From Chthonomonadaceae bacterium (GTDB lineage: Bacteria > Armatimonadota > Chthonomonadetes > Chthonomonadales > Chthonomonadaceae), in contig DAIDKH010000006.1 in assembly GCA_027450145.1 (NCBI GenBank), forward strand, positions 1-64,000: 64,000 bases of DNA. The letters run 5' to 3'. The position numbers and the translations under genes were made by a program. Positions 18,016 to 28,566 of this stretch are shown here, one piece after another; position 1 is the first letter of the stretch, and each line of letters starts with the position of its first letter. The notes under the pieces are model-generated. The model had not been told where the DNA came from. It searched no databases and was given only the letters and a program-made list of their open reading frames with translations.

Positions 18016-21000
18016 CTATGTACCTGTACTAGGTGAACCAGCTCTAGCTGTCAATAGTGCAGCAGGCTGTAATGGAGGCTGATCTTCTGCGCGTACGGAA
18101 GGTAGTATGCGTGTAATGGCGCTCATACCGCCCGCATACATACGAAGCTGGCTGGAGAGAGGTTCTACTGCTTCAACCAGAATGGATACTCCACTGCCTT
18201 TATGTTTTACAATACCGGTAACTGTCACTGCTGGTGATGTAAGGAAAACTGGGGCGCACGCATCCATATACTGGCCCGTACAGATAATCTGTATGAAGTC
18301 TGTTTCATCTTCAACGGTGGTGAAGAGTGTGGTGCGACCAGTCCGGGTAGGTGGTCGGTGTGGCCTTAGGTTGAGACCCGCCACGCTTACTCTGCGGTTG
18401 TGGCTGGTTCTATTAGCCTGCCATGCAGTTATGACGTGCTGTTCACTTAGCGCGTCACGATAGTATGCCAGTGGGTGGCACGATGAGGCTACCCCGCACA
18501 TGCGCCATTCCCACTGAAACTTTTCATACGGTGAGAAATCTTCAATGTCATAAGCACATGGCGTGGGCACATTGCTGCTGCGCGGAAAACAGATAACCGG
18601 TTGGCTGTTAAACTCTTCGGTGCGAAACAGGAGTGCTTGCGCTATGGTTTCATCCAGACGCCATAGCAGCCCTCTAGTATGTGGGTGAAGGTTTTGAAAA
18701 GCACCGCATAAAATGAGATTTTCCAGCCGATTACGGTGTAGTGGCACTCTCGCGCAGAAATCTAGAAGCGAGTGGAATTCAGACTGTCTTCTTGCGGTAA
18801 GAATGGTGTCTATATCTTGTTGGCGCAGTTCTTCTACCAAACGCAGGCCCACGCGTATACTCTCATCCGTAGGGGTGGTACATACCTCTTCGCTTTCGTT
18901 AATGTCGATGGGGAGAATGGTAACTCCCCGACGCCGTGCCTCGGCTGCCAAACTGTTGGCAGAGTAGTAGCCCATTGGCTGGCAGCTCATGAGTGCCGCA
19001 AAGTATTCGGCAGGGTGGTGGCAGGAAATGTAGGCGCTACGTTGCGCGGTAATTGCAAAAGAGGCTGCGTGACCTTCTGTAAAACCGTAGCCACTCCAGC
19101 TCTCTATCTGCTGCCATATAAGCTGAGCAGTTTCTACACTTAGGTCACGATGATATTGTGTGGCTTTGCCGATAAATTCCTCGCAGGCTTGTTGCATGGT
19201 TCCCTGCCGGTCATGCTTCGAGAGACGTTTTCTCATTCTATCGGCTTCTGCTTCTGATATTCCTGTCATTGCTGCGAGTACCTGCACTACTTGCTCTTGA
19301 AAAATAACACATCCATATGTTTTGGCCAATACCGGCTGCAGTGCAGGATGTAGCACATCTGCCCTGGCCCAGCCATTACGACATGCAACAAAACGCCGCA
19401 CTGCAAAACTTCGTATGGGGCCTGGGCGAATAAGAGCCACGCTGGCAACAAGATCCTCAAACTGGCGAGATTCCAGTGTGCATGCCAGTGCCATTTGTGC
19501 CGGAGATTCTAACTGAAATGCTCCCATGGCTTTACCAGATCTTAACAGGCGATAGGTGTCTTCATCTTCTGCAGGTATGTTGTTGTACTGAAAGCCGTGA
19601 ATGCGTTCTGCTATCTGTGAAGATGCTTGCTCTACGGCAGTGAGTATGCGCAGGGATAGGACGTCTAACTTCATACCTCCAACCTCTTCCACATCGTCCT
19701 TATCTAGTGTGATAAGTGGCAAGATGCCTCTTGCAGTTGGCTGCATGGGGGCTAAGGTATGCAGCGGCTGTCTAAACACAACTACCCCGGATGAGTGGGT
19801 GCCAATGTGACGGGGAAATCCTGCAATACGTTTGCAGAGGCTAAAAAGCAAGTGGCACTGTTTTGTAAGTGCAATGTGTGGCTTTAGCTCTGGCACATGT
19901 GAAAATGCATCTTCAATATGAGCGGCTCTTACGAAATGGGCAACATTCTTACTGAAGAACTTTAGTAATTCGGGTGGCAGCGCCAGTGCTTTACCTACAT
20001 CGCGTAATGCGGATTTTGCTCGGTAGGTATGAAATGTGCAGGCCATGGCTACGTGTTCGGCACCATATTCGGCTGCAATAAAGCGGAATACCTCATCGCG
20101 GCGGTTGGCGTCGAAATCAAGGTCTATATCCGGTGTTTTGCCAGGAGAGAGAAATCGGGCGAAAGGCAGATTGCGCGATATAACGTCTACATCAGTAAGC
20201 ATGAGAGCGTATGCGGTGCAGGAATCTGCAGCGCTACCCCTTCCTGTGCAGCGAATTCCCATGCTGCGCGCCCAGCGTGCTGTCTTCCATGCGAACAGGA
20301 AGTAGTTTGCAAAGCCCATACTGGTAATAATTTCTAATTCATGTTGTAGACGTGATTCTACTGCTTTTGTAAAGGGACGATAACGATAGCGTGCTCCTTT
20401 ATAGGCGAGATGACGCAGGTATTCGTTTTCGTTGGTGCCTGGTGGACAGTGGTGTACCGGGCTAAAGTTACTTACTTGTACAAGAGAATCGGTACACATG
20501 CTAGCAATGGCGGCACTGTTAGCGAGTACCTGAGGACAGTGTTCAAAAAGCTGCCGCATTTGCTGTTCCGATTTTAAATAGCGTTCTGAATTAAGCGGAC
20601 GAGCCCAGTGAGGTGTATTAAGATCGATACCGTACCGTATACATGTAAGGATATCATGCGCTGCAAAATCTTCGGCCCGCGCATAATGTACGTTGTTGGT
20701 GGCTACGGCTTGCACTTTGCACTCTGCGGCGAGTTGCAGCAGTTCTAAACACACACGCTGCGAATGAGGGGTGAGGTCATCTTGCAGTTCTACAAAGAGG
20801 CGTTCATCCCCAAATATCTTTATGAGCACTTGCAGGGTTTGGCGGGCTTCAGTGTATCTATGAGTTTCTATCAACCTGAAAATGTTACCTCGGCGGCAGC
20901 CAGTAAGGCAGAGTACTCCTTCGTTATAGTCCTGTAGTGCCTGTATCGGCAGCAGGGGGTGTAGTCTTTCGCCTGTTTGTGCTGCTATGGTAAGCAGTCG

Positions 21001-21264
21001 GCAAAGAGTTGCGTATCCTGTTGAATTTATTGCAATGAGTGTAAGATGACTATTATCCTGCAGCGTAACCTCGGCGCCAAAAATGGGCTTAATACCATAT
21101 GCATGACAGGTGGTATGGAATTTTACGGCAGCTGCCAATGAGTCATGATCGGTAAGTGCAAGAGCGGGCATACCCATTTCGGCGGCTCGAGATACCAGTG
21201 TCTCTATATCAGATGCGCCATCTAGAAAACTATATGGGCTGTGTACATGCAAATGAATAAACAT
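18016..21264 (-). CDS. dnaE2: Error-prone DNA polymerase III alpha subunit DnaE2/ImuC
   Basis: C-family polymerase of the mutasome that performs lesion bypass. In 1082 residues: PHP domain with HLHVHSPYSFLDG (4-16) and LTDHDSL, the TDHD form typical of DnaE2; palm with the catalytic aspartates in TPDIDLDFD (near 380); fingers; a helix-hairpin-helix region; and a C-terminal OB fold (about 960-1060, RVSVAGLNLRPHRP and VEDETDFIQI). The active-site residues are present and the C-terminal tau-binding part of replicative DnaE is absent. ATG has GAGAGG five bases before it, lying in the end of imuB, nine bases upstream, so the two are one transcription unit. Confidence 0.93.
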   Translation of the reverse strand: MFIHLHVHSPYSFLDGASDIETLVSRAAEMGMPALALTDHDSLAAAVKFHTTCHAYGIKPIFGAEVTLQDNSHLTLIAINSTGYATLCRLLTIAAQTGERLHPLLPIQALQDYNEGVLCLTGCRRGNIFRLIETHRYTEARQTLQVLIKIFGDERLFVELQDDLTPHSQRVCLELLQLAAECKVQAVATNNVHYARAEDFAAHDILTCIRYGIDLNTPHWARPLNSERYLKSEQQMRQLFEHCPQVLANSAAIASMCTDSLVQVSNFSPVHHCPPGTNENEYLRHLAYKGARYRYRPFTKAVESRLQHELEIITSMGFANYFLFAWKTARWARSMGIRCTGRGSAADSCTAYALMLTDVDVISRNLPFARFLSPGKTPDIDLDFDANRRDEVFRFIAAEYGAEHVAMACTFHTYRAKSALRDVGKALALPPELLKFFSKNVAHFVRAAHIEDAFSHVPELKPHIALTKQCHLLFSLCKRIAGFPRHIGTHSSGVVVFRQPLHTLAPMQPTARGILPLITLDKDDVEEVGGMKLDVLSLRILTAVEQASSQIAERIHGFQYNNIPAEDEDTYRLLRSGKAMGAFQLESPAQMALACTLESRQFEDLVASVALIRPGPIRSFAVRRFVACRNGWARADVLHPALQPVLAKTYGCVIFQEQVVQVLAAMTGISEAEADRMRKRLSKHDRQGTMQQACEEFIGKATQYHRDLSVETAQLIWQQIESWSGYGFTEGHAASFAITAQRSAYISCHHPAEYFAALMSCQPMGYYSANSLAAEARRRGVTILPIDINESEEVCTTPTDESIRVGLRLVEELRQQDIDTILTARRQSEFHSLLDFCARVPLHRNRLENLILCGAFQNLHPHTRGLLWRLDETIAQALLFRTEEFNSQPVICFPRSSNVPTPCAYDIEDFSPYEKFQWEWRMCGVASSCHPLAYYRDALSEQHVITAWQANRTSHNRRVSVAGLNLRPHRPPTRTGRTTLFTTVEDETDFIQIICTGQYMDACAPVFLTSPAVTVTGIVKHKGSGVSILVEAVEPLSSQLRMYAGGMSAITRILPSVRAEDQPPLQPAALLTARAGSPSTGT

Positions 21265-21273
21265 GGCAGCCTC

Positions 21274-22692
21274 TCAGTCGGCAATCGCGGTAAGGCACCA
21301 TCGGCTGCCTATTCTAGTAAGTTCACAGCAGCCCATGCGCCCGCAAAGTATTCTGTACGCAAATTTATCTACATAACCTTGGTCAGTCCATGTAGTTTCA
21401 TTCCATCGGTTTTCTACAGAATCTACGGGGTACTCTTTACCTCGCCATACCACACGTATGGGGTTTCCATTGGAGCCTGTAATGACTTGAATGGGCTCTT
21501 GGCATTTTCTACCCAATCCATGAATCCAGGTTTGAATAGAGCTAGATCTCACCAACTGATCGGCTTTTACTACTTTACCGCCGCCATATTTTTTGCTGAT
21601 GTACCCAAGGGATTTATGCAGTCTGTCATGGCGTTCGTGCGGATATCCTGCAATAGACTGGTTATCATCTAACAGGGCAAGCTGGCGTGCGGTACCAACG
21701 CCAAACGCTCCAACACGCAAGGTAATTCGCTGCACCGGTTGAGCAGGGCTAAGCTTGTACAGCAGGCGCTCACCTGCCTCGGCAATTATAAGCGGGTTTC
21801 GTGTAGCGTGCTCCAGCTTCAGTTCTGCAATAGCGGGTAAGCCGGTTTCAGGTTCAAGTTCCAGTGCAATCCATGCACACAACTCCTGACGAGCAGTAAG
21901 TTTACGCGCAAGATAGGCTGCCAAACGCGGCAATATTTTTTGCAGTAACCCGAGGTCATTTATGGGTTCTTCATACCAGTGTGATCGTTGCAAGCAAGGA
22001 GGAGGCCATACCGGGCATAAACGGTTGTCATCCTGCCCCATAGCCAGGCGCATTACCTGGTGAGCGGATGCACCAAATTGGCGTATCAGCTCTGTTAGGG
22101 GAGTACGCATGAAGTCACCAGCGGTACGAATGCCCAACCGTTCTGCACGCTTGATAATGGCAGGGTCTATGCCTGGCAGCATTATAAGGCTGATACCAGC
22201 CATGAATAGCAGTTCGTTTTCCTGCGATACCAGCTTTATTTTTCCGCGCCCCACGCGCAGCGCAGCCAACTGAGCAATAAGTTTACTGCTGCCAATACCC
22301 ACACTGGGGCGCATGCCATATATCTGGCTAACGTGCTTGCAAAGTTCTATTGTACGAGGAAGTAGGTCCTTCTCTTCTGCAAGCAGGAAACACCATTCTG
22401 GACCGTTAGGTTCTACCACGGAACTTTCAGCAGCAGCCAGCCACCATAATTTATTGGCTGCTTCCAGATAGATTTCCCTGTTGTACTCTTTAAACAAGGT
22501 ATTGGGATGCATTGCGAGAATACCGGTCTTGCTTTGGCCGGGTACAATGCCTCTTTTTTCAGCCTCACCTGAAATAACTACGGCCTGGTCTTCTTCGTTT
22601 AGCAGTACTAACGGCTTGTTGAGCAGTTCTGAATTAAGCCTGGTCTCAGCATAGATTCCCATTTGGGGTAAATACAGAGATAATGTAATCAT
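21274..22692 (-). CDS. imuB: ImuB-like Y-family polymerase homologue (probably catalytically inactive)
   Basis: 472 residues with Y-family palm, fingers and little finger, followed by a C-terminal segment (IRVVWRGKEYPVDSVENRW) like the DUF6504 tail of ImuB-type proteins. The N-terminal motif that is DMDAFFASVE in active polymerases reads YLPQMGIYAET here, with no aspartate, and the SAD/DE motif is also missing (AAESSVVEP). It is therefore expected to act as ImuB does, as a hub that recruits DnaE2 to the beta clamp. No imuA or ImuA' recA-like gene is adjacent. ATG is preceded by no real SD; a strong promoter lies 32 bases upstream. Confidence 0.87.
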   Translation of the reverse strand: MITLSLYLPQMGIYAETRLNSELLNKPLVLLNEEDQAVVISGEAEKRGIVPGQSKTGILAMHPNTLFKEYNREIYLEAANKLWWLAAAESSVVEPNGPEWCFLLAEEKDLLPRTIELCKHVSQIYGMRPSVGIGSSKLIAQLAALRVGRGKIKLVSQENELLFMAGISLIMLPGIDPAIIKRAERLGIRTAGDFMRTPLTELIRQFGASAHQVMRLAMGQDDNRLCPVWPPPCLQRSHWYEEPINDLGLLQKILPRLAAYLARKLTARQELCAWIALELEPETGLPAIAELKLEHATRNPLIIAEAGERLLYKLSPAQPVQRITLRVGAFGVGTARQLALLDDNQSIAGYPHERHDRLHKSLGYISKKYGGGKVVKADQLVRSSSIQTWIHGLGRKCQEPIQVITGSNGNPIRVVWRGKEYPVDSVENRWNETTWTDQGYVDKFAYRILCGRMGCCELTRIGSRWCLTAIAD

Positions 22693-22757
22693 TTGTCTAC
22701 CAAAAGATTAAGTGTATATCTGTATTATACGAAGAAAGTGTATTTTTGTCTACTAAA
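22692..22757. repeat. Pair of 13-base direct repeats flanking the imuB promoter
   Basis: TTTGTCTACCAAA (22692-22704) and TTTGTCTACTAAA (22745-22757) on the plus strand differ at one base. Their centres are 53 bases apart, about five helical turns. One overlaps the -35 box, the other the start codon. Each is partly palindromic (TTTG-N5-YAAA). The placement is what one expects of operators for a damage-responsive repressor, but the sequence is not the GAAC-N4-GTTC or CTG-N10-CAG LexA box. Confidence 0.6.
22724..22752 (-). promoter_or_regulatory. Strong sigma-70-type promoter of imuB-dnaE2
   Basis: On the minus strand TAGACA (22747-22752, five of six to TTGACA), a 17-base spacer and a perfect TATAAT (22724-22729). 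Initiation near 22717 leaves an approximately 25-base leader before imuB. The -35 is embedded in one copy of a 13-base repeat, suggesting repression at this promoter. Confidence 0.75.
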
Positions 22758-22775
22758 TTATATGGGCACTATAAA

Positions 22776-23498
22776 TTAATTGGTGGGTTGTTGTGTTTGA
22801 AGAACGAGGAAGACATTGTATGCTGCTGTGGTTTGTCGCATAACCTCTTCACCATTTTCGTGTTGCAGCAGCGTGCGGTGAGCTGTAGTCCACTCTGTTA
22901 GATACTGAGGGTTATGAGGGTCGTTAAGCAGCATGCACATAGCGGCGTAGGCGTTGCAAAAATCGATGTACTGTGGAGTTACTGCTAGAGAAGCAGCCTG
23001 TTGAAAGTGCTGTTGGGCCTGCTGCCAGTGCATTCGCGCCATGCAGTGTGCGGCGAGCAGCCAGTGGGCACGTGCCGCAAGAGCGGGCTCTTCCTGATTT
23101 TCCTGTGAAAGACGCAGGTAGAGTCTGGCGGCTTCCATACCAAAGAGCAGGTGAGTGTCCTGTATGACCAGATCTGGTGAATTCCAGCCAGGCCATGTAG
23201 CTGATGCAAGCCTGCCAGCCAGTTCTGCAGCCTGTTGCCGTAGGTGCGCCGCTGATTGTGGACTTTCTGTTTTTAGTGTAATGGAGTTAGCAAGGCAAAA
23301 TTGAATACCGGCATGTACCAGTACTACCATGCTGTTTAAATCTGTACTTTCCTGCTGTAAATGAGCAGCTAATTCATTCAGCAATCTGCCAGCCGCTAGA
23401 GGTGTGATGGTTGCAACCATCTCCTCAATCGCTGCATAAATATCCTGTTCGTGCCATCGCGCAATAAAGTGGTGAACATGGTTATCGTCCCAGTCCAT
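22776..23498 (-). CDS. Unknown helical (TPR-like) protein
   Basis: 240 residues, rich in Ala, Gln and Leu, almost wholly alpha-helical. Segments such as ARAHWLLAAHCMARMHWQQA followed by QQHFQQAASLAVTPQYIDFC look like tetratricopeptide helices. No signal peptide or membrane helix is seen. The ATG is firmly set by GGGAGG seven bases upstream. It lies between the GAF protein and imuB in the same direction, but imuB has its own promoter, so a role in the mutasome is not implied. No known domain recognised. Confidence 0.65.
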   Translation of the reverse strand: MDWDDNHVHHFIARWHEQDIYAAIEEMVATITPLAAGRLLNELAAHLQQESTDLNSMVVLVHAGIQFCLANSITLKTESPQSAAHLRQQAAELAGRLASATWPGWNSPDLVIQDTHLLFGMEAARLYLRLSQENQEEPALAARAHWLLAAHCMARMHWQQAQQHFQQAASLAVTPQYIDFCNAYAAMCMLLNDPHNPQYLTEWTTAHRTLLQHENGEEVMRQTTAAYNVFLVLQTQQPTN

Positions 23499-23572
23499 CT
23501 GTAAACCTCCCTGCGATATTGCCGCAGTGTTGCCATCGCTCTTATGGGATTGGCTGAAGAACGCTTATAGGG

Positions 23573-25531
23573 TTATTCTAATGGTTGATTAAAAGCAAAC
23601 CGCTCCGCAAGTCGTGCGCTACGTGCAAATTGTGTTAGCAGTTCTTCTTCCCCATTAGAAAACGTGCCAGATTTGTGTGAAAACACCTCTAGAACACCCA
23701 CTGTGTGTCTACCCTCTTTAATGGGGACACCCAAATACGATTTAAAAGGACCAAGGGTATGTTCTAACGTAACTTGAGGAGGTATGCTATTGCCTCCCAC
23801 GGCAAGAACGCGGCCATAACGGGCGACCCATGCAGTATGGCTTTTTATGTCGCTGCTGTTCATCCATGAAATGTCATCGTCTGGTTTATTTATAAAGGCA
23901 ATAGGTAGCAATTCACCTGCTAGAACCGCGTGCATGATGCACGTATCGGCGTGTACCATTTCACGTATAATCGTTGCTATTGTCTCGGTTGTTATCCCGG
24001 TGCTAAGTTTTAGGCTGGCAGCTATGCGGTTAAAACCGCGCTGCACTGTTCGGCTGTGTTCATTATGCTGGCTGCTGAGCTGGTTGTTTTCTAGCGCTGT
24101 AGCAAGGTGATTGGCAATAATATCCAGCAGATTGAGTTCGTGTTCTGCCCAGTGGCGCCTATGCGGTGACATGGCAAGCAGTACGCCCAATTCGTTGTCA
24201 ACCGTAGCGAGAGGTACTCCCATAGCTGATCGCACACCCAAAACACCCAACGGATGTGAGGCGTTACGCACATCCATTTCAATATCGGTTATTCGTGCTG
24301 GCGTAAGCCATTGATATATCCAGCCGGGTATTGATTCGCCTGGTGCACATTTGAAAGCCGCCGCCCCACCCGTTAGCCCGCTGCTGCTACGCATGTGCAG
24401 CATATTTTCGTGCGAGTCATACATCAATACCGCAAACTGGGTAACAAGCAGCAGTTCCTCTACTGCCTTGCTGACCGCGCGCAGGTTTTTGTCATCATCA
24501 TGTGTACTGGCGAGATCTCTGGCGAGCCTGTAGAGGGTCTCGGTTTCCATTTTGCGCAGTGAAAGATCCTCATACATGAAGGCGTTATGCACAGCAGTAC
24601 CCGCCTGTGCAAGGAGAGTTTCCACCAGGCGCATTTGCCTGTTAGAGTAGGGGTTTTCTGTTTGTCGTGCGGCTACCAGTACTCCTAGCACCTCACCGCC
24701 GCTCTCTAGGGAAGCAACTAATCCGCTTTGCAGAATGTCGCAATCTAGCAGCGTATGAAACTCTTGCAACTGTTCGCTGTTTAACGAATAGACACCTGGA
24801 AACTGCAGTGCCTGACGAACCATGAGGCCCTGCACGTCCAGTTGTACCTCTCGTCGGTCTTCGGGTACACCGTCGGAACAAGCCGGCAACAGGTGAGTTC
24901 GTGGATCGTTGAGCATAAAGACGGCTGAGAACGAGGGTTGTAGCAGGTCTTTAAGGCCGTCGAGTAGTGATTGAAGTACAATTTGGATGTTGAGGCTGCC
25001 ACTAATTGTGCGTGCCGACCTATGCAGAATGGAGAGGTCGTGTTCTTTTTGCTGAAGCTGCTGACGAATCTCTGCACTATTAAGAGCAAGCCGAATCGTC
25101 CGTTCAAGAATAGCGAGTGCGCTTAGTTCCCGTGTGCTAAAGCCTACCCTGGTGCATGTTATTTCAATGATGCCCAGTGCATCATTCTCGGGCCCAAGCG
25201 GGTAAAGGAGTGTGTGGTCGCCTGAGGGCAGTGCGAGGGTTGTGGGTTTTCCCTCGGGCATCTCGGTGCGGGCTCTCTCAATACGTGCCGGAAGGTTTGC
25301 TGCATGAGAAAATGGGATTGCGCTTCCTGCCAGCGCATGTGGGCCAGTAGGGTTATCTGCGGTAGGAAAGAGCCCTATCAGCACGCTGTCGGCATCCAGT
25401 ACCGCAGCAAGCTCATCTGCGGCAGCCTGAAGCAGCACACGCACCGCAGAACGAGCGTGTGCTGCTATAGCTTGTTGGGCGAGGGCGATTCGTTCCACCA
25501 TCTGTGCACTGTATCCCGCCACATCAGACAA
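23573..25531 (-). CDS. Multi-GAF-domain protein without visible output domain
   Basis: 652 residues made of about four successive GAF domains (roughly 20-160, 175-320, 340-480, 500-645), linked by helices that may form a signalling coiled coil. Repeated GAF features are LGIIEITCTRVGFSTRELSA, VLGVLVAARQTENPYSNRQM and LGVPIKEGRHTVGVLEVFSH. No kinase, GGDEF, EAL, HD-GYP, PP2C or DNA-binding domain follows, so it is probably a sensor or scaffold acting with another protein. TTG is taken as start because GGGAG lies seven bases before it; a GTG three codons later is possible. A cytosolic redox or ligand sensor is a guess. Confidence 0.8.
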   Translation of the reverse strand: MSDVAGYSAQMVERIALAQQAIAAHARSAVRVLLQAAADELAAVLDADSVLIGLFPTADNPTGPHALAGSAIPFSHAANLPARIERARTEMPEGKPTTLALPSGDHTLLYPLGPENDALGIIEITCTRVGFSTRELSALAILERTIRLALNSAEIRQQLQQKEHDLSILHRSARTISGSLNIQIVLQSLLDGLKDLLQPSFSAVFMLNDPRTHLLPACSDGVPEDRREVQLDVQGLMVRQALQFPGVYSLNSEQLQEFHTLLDCDILQSGLVASLESGGEVLGVLVAARQTENPYSNRQMRLVETLLAQAGTAVHNAFMYEDLSLRKMETETLYRLARDLASTHDDDKNLRAVSKAVEELLLVTQFAVLMYDSHENMLHMRSSSGLTGGAAAFKCAPGESIPGWIYQWLTPARITDIEMDVRNASHPLGVLGVRSAMGVPLATVDNELGVLLAMSPHRRHWAEHELNLLDIIANHLATALENNQLSSQHNEHSRTVQRGFNRIAASLKLSTGITTETIATIIREMVHADTCIMHAVLAGELLPIAFINKPDDDISWMNSSDIKSHTAWVARYGRVLAVGGNSIPPQVTLEHTLGPFKSYLGVPIKEGRHTVGVLEVFSHKSGTFSNGEEELLTQFARSARLAERFAFNQPLE

Positions 25532-25662
25532 AACAGTACTCCCATTTCACTGCAAACTGCAGACAAAGGCAATATTACCGCCCCATTGCCGTGTGCACTG
25601 TGTTTACTGACGGAACCTGTTGTGCACTAGTTCACACATACGTGTCATTAGCGGCGACACGC

Positions 25663-25884
25663 CTATACTCGTGTTCCCACCACCGCGCTTAGCGCTGATT
25701 CGCTGGTGCATAATCTGCCGTCTACTGGACGTACGGCAAGTTGGTGAGTGCTGGCGGGTGCATAGATCTGAGCGGAACAGATTCTACATGAGCCAACCAT
25801 AGAAAGCTCTCCATGGCGGGTTCGTACGATTGTTGGCTGGCTGATCTCCTGATGACACCTGCAGCGAACACAGTAAGCGATCAT
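25663..25884 (-). CDS. Small zinc-ribbon protein, DUF5679-like
   Basis: 73 residues from an ATG supported by AGGAGA five bases upstream. The first 42 residues form a zinc ribbon: AYCVRC (Cys5, Cys8) and GSCRIC (Cys33, Cys36), with HQEISQPTIV between, the pattern of DUF5679 (YCVKC...EI...GxCPxCG). The 30-residue tail is low in order. Such proteins are small cytosolic nucleic-acid or protein binders of unknown role. It stands behind a leader of about 370 bases with a strong promoter, unusual for so small a gene. Confidence 0.7.
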   Translation of the reverse strand: MIAYCVRCRCHQEISQPTIVRTRHGELSMVGSCRICSAQIYAPASTHQLAVRPVDGRLCTSESALSAVVGTRV

Positions 25885-26253
25885 GGTCTCTCCTTTTGCC
25901 TCGTTGAACTGCAGTGCAGTCACGCGGCATATAACTGGAAGGGGGCTGTAGTTGCCTCCAAATACAGCATCGGCCCTACCAGGCTCCGGTTATGCGATGT
26001 TCTGTTTGTGCTAGGTTCCTAAAGATTAGGACTGCACGGGGATGTGCCGTGCCGCACACCCCGTAATCGCTGCTGACGTTCGTTGACGTCGTACTGTCGC
26101 GCAGGTAAATGCCGGAGGACCCCTGGCATCCCTGCATTACGCAGTAATCTGCAGCTTGTATGATGGCTAATTGCTATTTCAAAAGTGCAATAGAAGGAAC
26201 ATTGGCAAACGCGCACGGTGGCTAGAGACTGCCCAGTTACGCTTTGCTATTGA
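25885..26253 (-). ncRNA. Structured RNA candidate: long leader of the zinc-ribbon gene or separate small RNA
   Basis: The transcript expected from the promoter at 26260-26288 runs about 370 bases before the zinc-ribbon start. It holds a chain of hairpins: ACGGGG-TGTGC, loop GGCACG, GCACAtCCCCGT (26035-26063), CTGC-AG-ATTAC, loop TGC, GTAAT-GCAG (about 26130-26152), GACGT-CAACGA-ACGTC (about 26075-26090), and ATGCC to GGCAT around a GGGG/CC core (about 26109-26130). No open frame with an SD explains it. I do not find RNase P, tmRNA, 6S or SRP signatures with any confidence. Confidence 0.45.
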
Positions 26254-26259
26254 GGTTGT

Positions 26260-26288
26260 ATTATACGCGCAGTTTACGGGCTTGTAAA
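26260..26288 (-). promoter_or_regulatory. Strong sigma-70-type promoter
   Basis: Minus strand TTTACA (26283-26288), 17-base spacer, perfect TATAAT (26260-26265). It points toward the structured leader and the zinc-ribbon gene. Initiation near 26253. Confidence 0.7.
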
Positions 26289-26587
26289 TGGTTGATTCAA
26301 CTTATTTTTATGTTGTTTGTTTATAATTAATGATATCTAATCACGGCTAATAACAATCTTAGTAGATTACCGACAGGCATATTTTAGCCTAGTTATTTTG
26401 GGCTTCGTTTCTGTGAATTTGTAAGGTTTACATCGCCATGCAAGTGTATGCCTAACTGTTTCTGCTGGCGTAATAACCCGTGTGATGACCTGGCGCAACA
26501 TTCGGCAGCATCCTGAGTAACCTGCCTATGCCTTACCCGTAAGCAGAGATGGCACAAGCCGAAGAGGAGTGTAATCTAACAGGCAGT
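26289..26587. other. AT-rich intergenic region, no gene seen
   Basis: Between the promoter of the structured RNA and the end of the HEAT-like membrane gene. The part 26289-26400 is clearly richer in A and T than its surroundings. It has TATAAT-like boxes on the plus strand without a well-spaced -35. No tRNA, convincing coding frame or T-tract terminator was found. Confidence 0.5.
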
Positions 26588-28087
26588 TCACTGCGTTGTC
26601 GCGTTTGTACCTTTCAGCATATCTTCGTTCTGCTCTGGTGCGCTTGAACCCTGTACCAGGTTTTGTTTTGTATCTGGAGAGCTTATCAAGAGAAGTTCTG
26701 AAGGCTGCATCATTCGTAGTTCAACCGCATTAAGGCACCGTTGAACCTTATCGTAATAGGTGCTCGGGATGCCCTGCTGCTGCAACTCTCTTAGCATTTG
26801 TGCGGTAGACATATCACCAATATGAGAAAGTGCAGCCAGAAGATTATTCGTTAAGTCGGCGTGTATTATATCCTGGTGGGTGGTAGCAAAGTCGCTTGAG
26901 GTGATGTGGTATAGCGCTAACTGGTTGAGTAAGGCAAGTTGAGCAGGGTGAATGTGGGTACTGCACTTGGCGGTTATGTTACTCAGCACCGTTGACAACA
27001 TGAAATAGTACAACCAGTTTTCGCGGTCTACGGACCGGGTCGTTAGCAAGAGTTTGAGGGAATCTGGATCGTCCTGGCTAACGGCACTGTAAAGTTGTTG
27101 GTACTGCTTATTGTCCTGCACTGCTTCTATTCCCAGTAATGGAAGGGCGCCAAGAACGATTATAATGGCCAAGATGAACGCAGTGATTACGAGCACTATT
27201 CCAGTATCCCGTATTGGTACCGTGTTTACTGATAGTGCACCCATACCCCCCAGAAAACAGGCTACGAGAAATCCACTTAGGCGGAATATGACAGTTACCG
27301 GCCTCGTGAATCGTGCACGTGAGTAGCCTTTAGCCGACATAACGGGTGCCTGACGAAGTGCATGATGTGCCTGTTTCGGGTTGAGCGCATGCAAAGCCCG
27401 CAGTGATGCTGCCCTAATCCGTCGTGAATTCGTGAAGGTTGCTCGATTCGTTAGCGCGGTTGTAGCTCGTTCGCCTCCGAGCATTTGTAGAGCATGGATG
27501 GCTGCGGGCAATAGAGTCGTTTTCACTGCGAGCCAGTTGATACTTTTCACAGGTTTATGTTGGTGTCTTTGTTCCGTTTCGACGACTTCGCAGATGAGGG
27601 CTTTTTGCTCTTCAGTAAGGTTTGTAGCCTGTTCATGAGTGAGGTTCGCCAGGTAGTCTTTTGCTTTAACTACCCAGTGAGCCTCTAAACGCGTAGGGCG
27701 GCTGGATTGTAAAAATGCTCCTGTTAGGTCCAGAAAAATCTGCGGATCATTCTCTATTTCGCGCCCGGGGTATTTGCTTATTGTGTCCTTAATGTTGGTG
27801 ATGTTTCTGCACTCCAGCACCTTTCGAGCATACCACCATGGAGCGAGCAAGAGGCAGCAGGCAGTTACCCCTATTGTAATATTAGTTGAAACATGAAGTA
27901 TAGGCATTGTTACTGCTATGGCTGCAGCTGAACCTATGGCGCTTCTACAATTGTCTGCGTAGATCCTGGCGGTGCGCTGATGACGACGAAGTGTAGACAA
28001 CTGTTCGTCTAGCGACTGCTGTGCTAGTTCCTGCAGGTTGGCAGGAGGAGCCATTGCACCACGGGTTTTGTTCAGGAAATCTAACAA
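26588..28087 (-). CDS. HEAT-like membrane protein of unknown function
   Basis: 499 residues. Two membrane helices near the N-terminus (SAAAIAVTMPILHVSTNI and ITIGVTACCLLLAPWW, about 50-87), a cytosolic helical part with HEAT-like repeats (LPAAIHALQMLGGERATTAL and RIRAASLRALHALNPKQAHH, about 190-240), two more helices (FLVACFLGGMGALSV and VLVITAFILAIIIVLGALPL, about 275-320), then a second helical repeat part and a Gln/Pro-rich tail. It recalls the two soluble HEAT-like proteins at 2546-4486 in style but is not obviously homologous. The start is TTG with a weak AAGG; an internal ATG 11 codons on is possible. Function unknown. Confidence 0.7.
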   Translation of the reverse strand: MLDFLNKTRGAMAPPANLQELAQQSLDEQLSTLRRHQRTARIYADNCRSAIGSAAAIAVTMPILHVSTNITIGVTACCLLLAPWWYARKVLECRNITNIKDTISKYPGREIENDPQIFLDLTGAFLQSSRPTRLEAHWVVKAKDYLANLTHEQATNLTEEQKALICEVVETEQRHQHKPVKSINWLAVKTTLLPAAIHALQMLGGERATTALTNRATFTNSRRIRAASLRALHALNPKQAHHALRQAPVMSAKGYSRARFTRPVTVIFRLSGFLVACFLGGMGALSVNTVPIRDTGIVLVITAFILAIIIVLGALPLLGIEAVQDNKQYQQLYSAVSQDDPDSLKLLLTTRSVDRENWLYYFMLSTVLSNITAKCSTHIHPAQLALLNQLALYHITSSDFATTHQDIIHADLTNNLLAALSHIGDMSTAQMLRELQQQGIPSTYYDKVQRCLNAVELRMMQPSELLLISSPDTKQNLVQGSSAPEQNEDMLKGTNATTQ

Positions 28088-28566
28088 CGCCTTAGTCCAA
28101 TCTCTGCCGTTAGCGCGACCGACTATTTGTACTCGTCGAAATCATGCGCAAACTGCTTACTCTCAATTTTTAGGTGCACAGGTGTAAAGGTATTACTCAC
28201 TAAATTATAACTCTTCTTATAGCGTGCTTATCGTTACCGTGTATTGTTAATTCTGCGCCGTTGCACGACCTGCTGCAGATGATATATGGTGCACTGCACC
28301 TGGCGTTTGCGGCTTCCAATGTCAGGTTGTTGCCAAAGCATTTCCTCTTGTGACTTTTTGGGCCAGCTCTAAGTAGTACTGCAGGGCATTCGTTCGAAAG
28401 GTGTAAAGAACCGCGCGCTTATGGTCATTTTGGGCACTTAGTGGACTATGGTGCGCATTCGTTGGTTTCTAATGTGGCAGACCCGTGGTGCTACGGCCTT
28501 GTTGTGCGTACCTCACGAGCGGGTAAAGTGTATAATCCCTACATACTGCGAGTACAGGGGGCACGA
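28088..28566. other. Divergent intergenic region
   Basis: Lies between the oppositely oriented HEAT-like membrane gene and rnhA. It contains a perfect 13-base palindrome GGTGCACTGCACC at 28288-28300 and, 31 bases before the rnhA start, a perfect TATAAT (28531-28536) without a good -35 box. On the minus strand TATAAT occurs near 28200 facing the HEAT-like gene. No gene was recognised. Confidence 0.45.

Follow-up and report, generated by a model that had tools for sequence, protein, structure and literature searches.

The window, by which we mean the whole 64,000-nt stretch of Chthonomonadaceae DNA analysed here, encodes on its minus strand a unit composed of a promoter, a putative structured RNA and a small zinc-ribbon ORF (Table 1). 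The features reported for this locus by the first-pass annotation are real, but their strand had not been given; all lie on the minus strand. The strong promoter it proposed is present, with the −35 hexamer TTTACA at 26288–26283 and the −10 hexamer TATAAT at 26265–26260 separated by a 17-nt spacer (11/12 consensus positions, with hexamers and spacing unchanged in both congeners). A promoter scan returned 2 promoter-like sites against a mean of 1.5 in shuffles; as such sites are nearly as common in shuffled sequence, a single site alone is weak evidence. The 35-bp promoter region is 89–97 % identical among three congeneric genomes, and 369 nt lie between the promoter and the ATG at 25884. Judging from the position of the −10 box, the transcript would start near 26253. 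The AT-rich DNA upstream of the promoter (26 % GC over 26300–26399) may contain regulator sites or an UP element; direct-repeat operators were searched for and none was found.

Table 1. Features of the minus-strand promoter–RNA–ORF unit and its upstream DNA, listed in the direction of transcription (positions are those of the window)
Feature	Position	Strand	Evidence
AT-rich conserved DNA upstream of promoter, unstructured	26289..26460	-	73–76 % identity; alifold z = −0.25
Sigma-70 type promoter, TTTACA-17-TATAAT	26260..26288	-	11/12 consensus positions; same hexamers and spacing in both congeners
Variable 5′ segment (nt 1–98), local hairpin poorly supported	26156..26253	-	52–68 % identity over 26160–26253; alifold z = −1.64
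Core 1, putative three-way junction P1-P2-P3	26069..26155	-	91–93 % pairwise identity; 77/87 positions invariant
P4 hairpin GGGRUGUGC-GGCACG-GCAYAUCCY, loop invariant	26039..26062	-	paired in 3/3; three one-sided changes keep pairing
P5 hairpin GUGC/GCAC, inner UCCUN/NAGGA	26008..26037	-	inner pair A-U, G-C, U-A in three genomes
Joining strand GCAUAACCGGAGC, mostly unpaired	25983..25995	-	fully invariant, 3/3
P6 extended hairpin (CUGG/CCAG, RGGG/YCCY, GCUGUA/UACAGC, UUG/CAA)	25935..25982	-	P6b compensatory A-U to G-C
P7 hairpin just 5′ of Shine–Dalgarno site	25897..25929	-	three pairs changed on both sides
Shine–Dalgarno region AGGAGAGACC	25885..25894	-	GGAGAGACC identical in three genomes
73-aa DUF5679 zinc-ribbon ORF, CxxC...CxxC	25663..25884	-	PF18930 match; congener identity; codon-position counts

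The region had been said to end at a small DUF5679-like gene with a good Shine–Dalgarno sequence, and such an ORF is indeed found there: its ATG is preceded by GGAG, the Shine–Dalgarno core is invariant, and its product gives a marginal match to the DUF5679 profile (PF18930, 27.3 bits against a Pfam cut-off of 27). The protein is 92–93 % identical in both congeners, the cysteines of both CxxC pairs are invariant in 3/3 genomes, and the variable columns are distributed 6/4/40 over the three codon positions. Because of this congener identity and the location of the changes at third positions, we regard the ORF as a real gene. Among 17 family genomes, relatives at 92–93 % identity occur in the two congeners only, the other four matches being 27–33 % identical; a search of genome contigs with the protein returned matches on two contigs only, those of G001 and G002. 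A predicted model of the protein (mean pLDDT 69) gave 0 PDB matches at E ≤ 0.001 and is uninformative, and the name ‘DUF5679’ was found in no paper of the literature searched.

A second DUF5679 gene is present elsewhere in the genome (G000:C4:69408; L030 1435–1665). It is the better match to the profile (54.7 bits) and the leader is absent there; genome searches with the covariance models described below (R1 and R2) found no second leader copy for this paralogue. The gene downstream of it we take, by resemblance, to be valyl-tRNA-synthetase-like.

Following the DUF5679 ORF, the next minus-strand gene encodes a multi-GAF-domain protein (23573–25531). It is followed, in this orientation, by an unassigned ORF of 240 aa, a gene for a Y-family polymerase whose end is DUF6504-like and one for a DnaE-type polymerase of the error-prone kind. 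The gene set at 18016–25531 is reminiscent of a mutagenesis cassette of the ImuB/DnaE2 type. The full-length GAF protein is 87–92 % identical within the genus, and its closest relatives in other family genomes are 28–33 % identical at best; a second, diverged copy is present in the three congeners too.

Conservation was assessed in three genomes of one genus, namely the assembly containing the window (G000) and the congeners G001 and G002. Both congeners retain the promoter–leader–ORF arrangement (3/3 genomes in all), with DNA identities of 83 and 76 % over 404 bp. Identity varies along the aligned stretch, from 89–97 % in the promoter to 52–68 % in the 5′ segment, 91–93 % in core 1, 74–85 % in the P4 region, 57–64 % in the linker and 82–91 % in core 2, an unevenness that would be expected of a functional element. 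Four-fold sites are 43–57 % identical in the GAF gene, 51–61 % in the DUF5679 gene and 35–43 % in the upstream 499-aa gene; as these sites are near saturation (35–61 %) compared with 91–93 % for the core, these comparisons indicate that core 1 must be under selection. One BLAST alignment (HSP) spans 26474 through the entire leader. The intergenic stretches 26475–26602 and 28088–28440, the latter close to the leader in length, gave no BLAST alignment in either congener.

At least four strong hairpins had been claimed for the leader; we find seven helical domains shared by the three genomes. The leader would be ordered as a variable 5′ segment, the junction P1–P3, P4, P5, an invariant joining strand, P6, P7 and the Shine–Dalgarno region. 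Core 1 comprises a closing stem (GCUGC...GCAGC), a long P2 arm and a P3 hairpin (GACGY/RCGUC), and the region encompassing it (26160–26066) returned an alifold z of −3.9, with a compensatory pair in P3. P4 corresponds to the hairpin that the first-pass annotation had named as ACGGGG-TGTGC. Its pairing is real, but the 3′ arm was misquoted and actually reads GCACATCCCCGT; only the inner 9–10 bp are kept in all three genomes. The P6 (core 2; 25998–25930) and P7 (25932–25885) regions returned alifold z values of −3.0 and −4.5, respectively, and in the window copy P7 ends two bases from the Shine–Dalgarno region. A putative pseudoknot between CUCCGG (nt 137) and CCGGAG (nt 265) was rejected: the two segments are perfectly complementary and do not vary, yet a complement as long turns up in 61.5 % of shuffled cores. 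Whole-length MFE folds differ among the three leaders in their predicted long-range part, and our claim is restricted to the local helices.

Folding the three leaders jointly with RNAalifold gave −99.9 kcal/mol vs −67.1 (sd 5.7) for column shuffles that preserve the conservation pattern (z = −5.77, 0/100 shuffles as low). The control regions returned z values of −0.91 (DUF5679 ORF), −0.25 (upstream DNA) and −1.60, +0.51 and −1.13 (three GAF-gene segments). When folded singly, the window copy had a z of −2.94 (0/100 dinucleotide shuffles as stable), and the congener copies −2.90 (0/100) and −1.86 (4/100; G002). The opposite strand folds nearly as well (alignment z = −4.29; for the window copy its MFE of −136.8 is lower than the −130.2 of the minus strand, z = −2.25). 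At many of the pairs that changed, a minus-strand G-U would read as C-A on the other strand; these variable pairs, together with the promoter and the ORF, lead us to assign the RNA to the minus strand.

Compensatory changes in the hairpins, which the first-pass annotation had put forward as a check, were detected in six pairs, although with n=3 sequences from one genus this covariation is below R-scape grade and of modest statistical weight. In a MAFFT alignment with a fixed 79-pair structure, 96.2 % of 236 cells were paired, a share inflated by construction since the structure was derived from the same three sequences, and six pairs changed on both sides (shuffle mean 3.0, with 5/500 shuffles reaching 6; slid partners give 0–2). 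A structure-guided count, a reading that leans towards the fold, yielded 77 pairs with 6 two-sided and 7 one-sided changes and 3/231 cells unpaired, and 0.5 % of 5000 shuffles reached six two-sided pairs. The two counts overlap without sharing the same six: the MAFFT count has a P2 pair (columns 130/152) and misses P5b, and the structure-guided count does the reverse. The clearest compensation is found in P5b (A-U, G-C, U-A), P3 (U-A, U-G, C-G), P6b (A-U to G-C) and three P7 pairs. Nine of the 17 helix segments never vary (P1, P2a, P2b, P2d, P2e, P5a, P6a, P6c and P6d) and hence yield no covariation evidence. We consider the covariation suggestive support for the fold.

The leader had been described as about 370 bases devoid of a supported gene, in agreement with which its 369 nt contain no ORF conserved among the three genomes. 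Indels interrupt in one genome frames that are open in another, and the variable columns are spread over the codon positions as 39/43/41, i.e. without periodicity, which is evidence against any conserved frame, whichever the strand. Leu-rich short ORFs near nt 46–56 were evaluated as a possible leader peptide and rejected, as they vary in start and length and the listed small leader ORFs have no Shine–Dalgarno motif. Within 25400–26600, no terminator-like site was found on the minus strand, including between the RNA and the ORF. The sole such site lies on the opposite strand, upstream of the promoter, and transcription attenuation is therefore disfavoured on the sequence.

To survey the distribution of the leader, we used covariance models R1 (131 positions; core 1 and P4) and R2 (116 positions; P6 and P7), each of which matched 3/291 phylum genomes at E ≤ 0.001, all of one genus and with one copy each. 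A class search of 31 genomes, with looser filters than the 291-genome search, returned the three known loci and two further matches per model (E = 0.01–0.07), all at different places and taken as chance. A DNA search of 61 genomes gave 3 strong matches, the remainder (E ≥ 0.0195) being short and likewise taken as chance, and the leader was found neither in plasmid and phage records nor in viral contigs. The RNA and the DUF5679 ORF occur together in 3/3 genomes and the RNA was detected in none of the rest of the 291; the best reading of these searches is that it is genus-restricted among the phylum genomes covered.

With Rfam 15, 0 matches at gathering score were returned in the window and 0 at E ≤ 10 over 25600–26500, in keeping with the novelty proposed for the leader, which is a candidate RNA family absent from that database. 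The congener loci gave microRNA matches only, at chance level and outside the leader. RNase P RNA was rejected as an identity for the leader, which has no RF00010 match; G001 carries, besides the leader, a separate full RNase P RNA (RF00010, 300 bits). RF00010 was found in G001 and in neither the 97 % complete assembly that contains the window nor G002, an absence that is probably an assembly gap. The window contains no tmRNA or tRNA.

Several known systems are comparable. Ribosomal-protein and other autoregulatory leaders likewise consist of a structured 5′ UTR before a small, possibly nucleic-acid-binding protein; unlike these, the leader described here has no demonstrated mimic of a known binding site, and DUF5679 is, to our knowledge, not a known ribosomal protein. 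Translation-controlling riboswitches similarly combine a junction with a hairpin beside the Shine–Dalgarno sequence and no terminator; the leader differs from them in having neither an Rfam aptamer match nor a conserved Shine–Dalgarno sequestering helix. Orphan leader motifs from intergenic searches, of the type treated in PMC8632094, are also long noncoding regions with a conserved fold, upstream of a gene and with no known ligand; the comparison with those motifs extends only as far as Rfam holds them. Under the ranking scheme of that paper, motifs with <5 representatives are typically low-ranking candidates, and three are found here. Literature on candidate structured RNAs or riboswitches and Armatimonadetes comprised general papers only, none of those listed mentioning Armatimonadetes.

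The first-pass annotation had suggested a structured RNA, either a regulatory leader or an independent small RNA. The folding energy (z = −5.8), the six compensatory pairs, the selection on the core and the lack of an Rfam match support this proposal, and we are confident that a conserved, selected RNA fold is real. Between the two options, a leader is favoured on this evidence because no terminator-like site precedes the ORF, the last helix abuts the Shine–Dalgarno region and RNA and ORF are linked in 3/3 genomes. The placement of the RNA between a promoter and the start codon of one gene, with this linkage, is that of the cis-leader class, and we think it reasonably probable that it serves the zinc-ribbon gene as a cis-acting 5′ leader.

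Transcription from the sigma-70 type promoter would produce an mRNA whose first ~370 nt form the folded leader, acting in cis, in response to a bound partner, on mRNA stability or the start of translation and not on termination. The location of P7, two bases from the Shine–Dalgarno region, suggests that it is ribosome access or mRNA stability that would be controlled. We found no conserved helix sequestering the Shine–Dalgarno sequence, which is predicted to be 0.39–0.56 unpaired with partners that differ per species, so a switch, if any, may use a bound protein. The likeliest partner would be a protein, perhaps the one encoded by the zinc-ribbon ORF, or a small ligand, which might then be bound by the invariant junction and joining strand. 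That the zinc-ribbon protein regulates its own synthesis is a guess based on proximity and on the general tendency of zinc ribbons to bind nucleic acid.

Compared with a leader, we give clearly less credence to the possibility that the promoter produces a structured small RNA that functions on its own, in trans or by binding a protein, and is processed or terminates near P7, the ORF merely sharing its transcript. A length of ~370 nt, a single copy per genome, a strong conserved promoter of its own, mostly local helices and a P4 loop predicted to be fully open in 3/3 genomes would all suit such an RNA; however, no intrinsic terminator-like site occurs before the ORF, the spacing from P7 to the Shine–Dalgarno region is nearly kept among the three genomes, and the RNA is never found apart from the ORF. 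It is improbable that the conservation stems from a function of the DNA itself (binding sites) or from a short protein that escaped recognition, with the hairpins being incidental. The near-invariance of core 1 does not by itself require RNA, conserved unstructured DNA does occur here (26289–26460), and each genome has very short ORFs within its 5′ segment. Against this stand the compensatory changes and the energy relative to shuffled alignments, as well as the even substitutions over codon positions (39/43/41), the frames broken by indels and the lack of a Shine–Dalgarno motif on the listed small ORFs. Least probable, and in our view very unlikely, is that the leader has diverged from an already described family, be it a riboswitch, a ribosomal leader, RNase P RNA or tmRNA. 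RNase P RNA and tmRNA are similar in length to the leader and the assembly containing the window gave no RF00010 match, yet 25600–26500 gave no Rfam match at E ≤ 10, the matches at the congener loci were to microRNAs alone, at chance level and not within the leader, G001 has its separate RNase P RNA and the window is free of tmRNA.

Returning to the cis-acting leader, we tentatively entertain the possibility that the locus represents a new, large, genus-confined RNA class, in which the junction and joining strand would sense a metal, a metabolite or a protein and control the zinc-ribbon protein, or in which a free RNA would be partnered with that protein. The promoter–RNA–gene unit is complete and hence transferable to a laboratory host for testing, and the putative leader would offer an initial clue to how the DUF5679 family is regulated.
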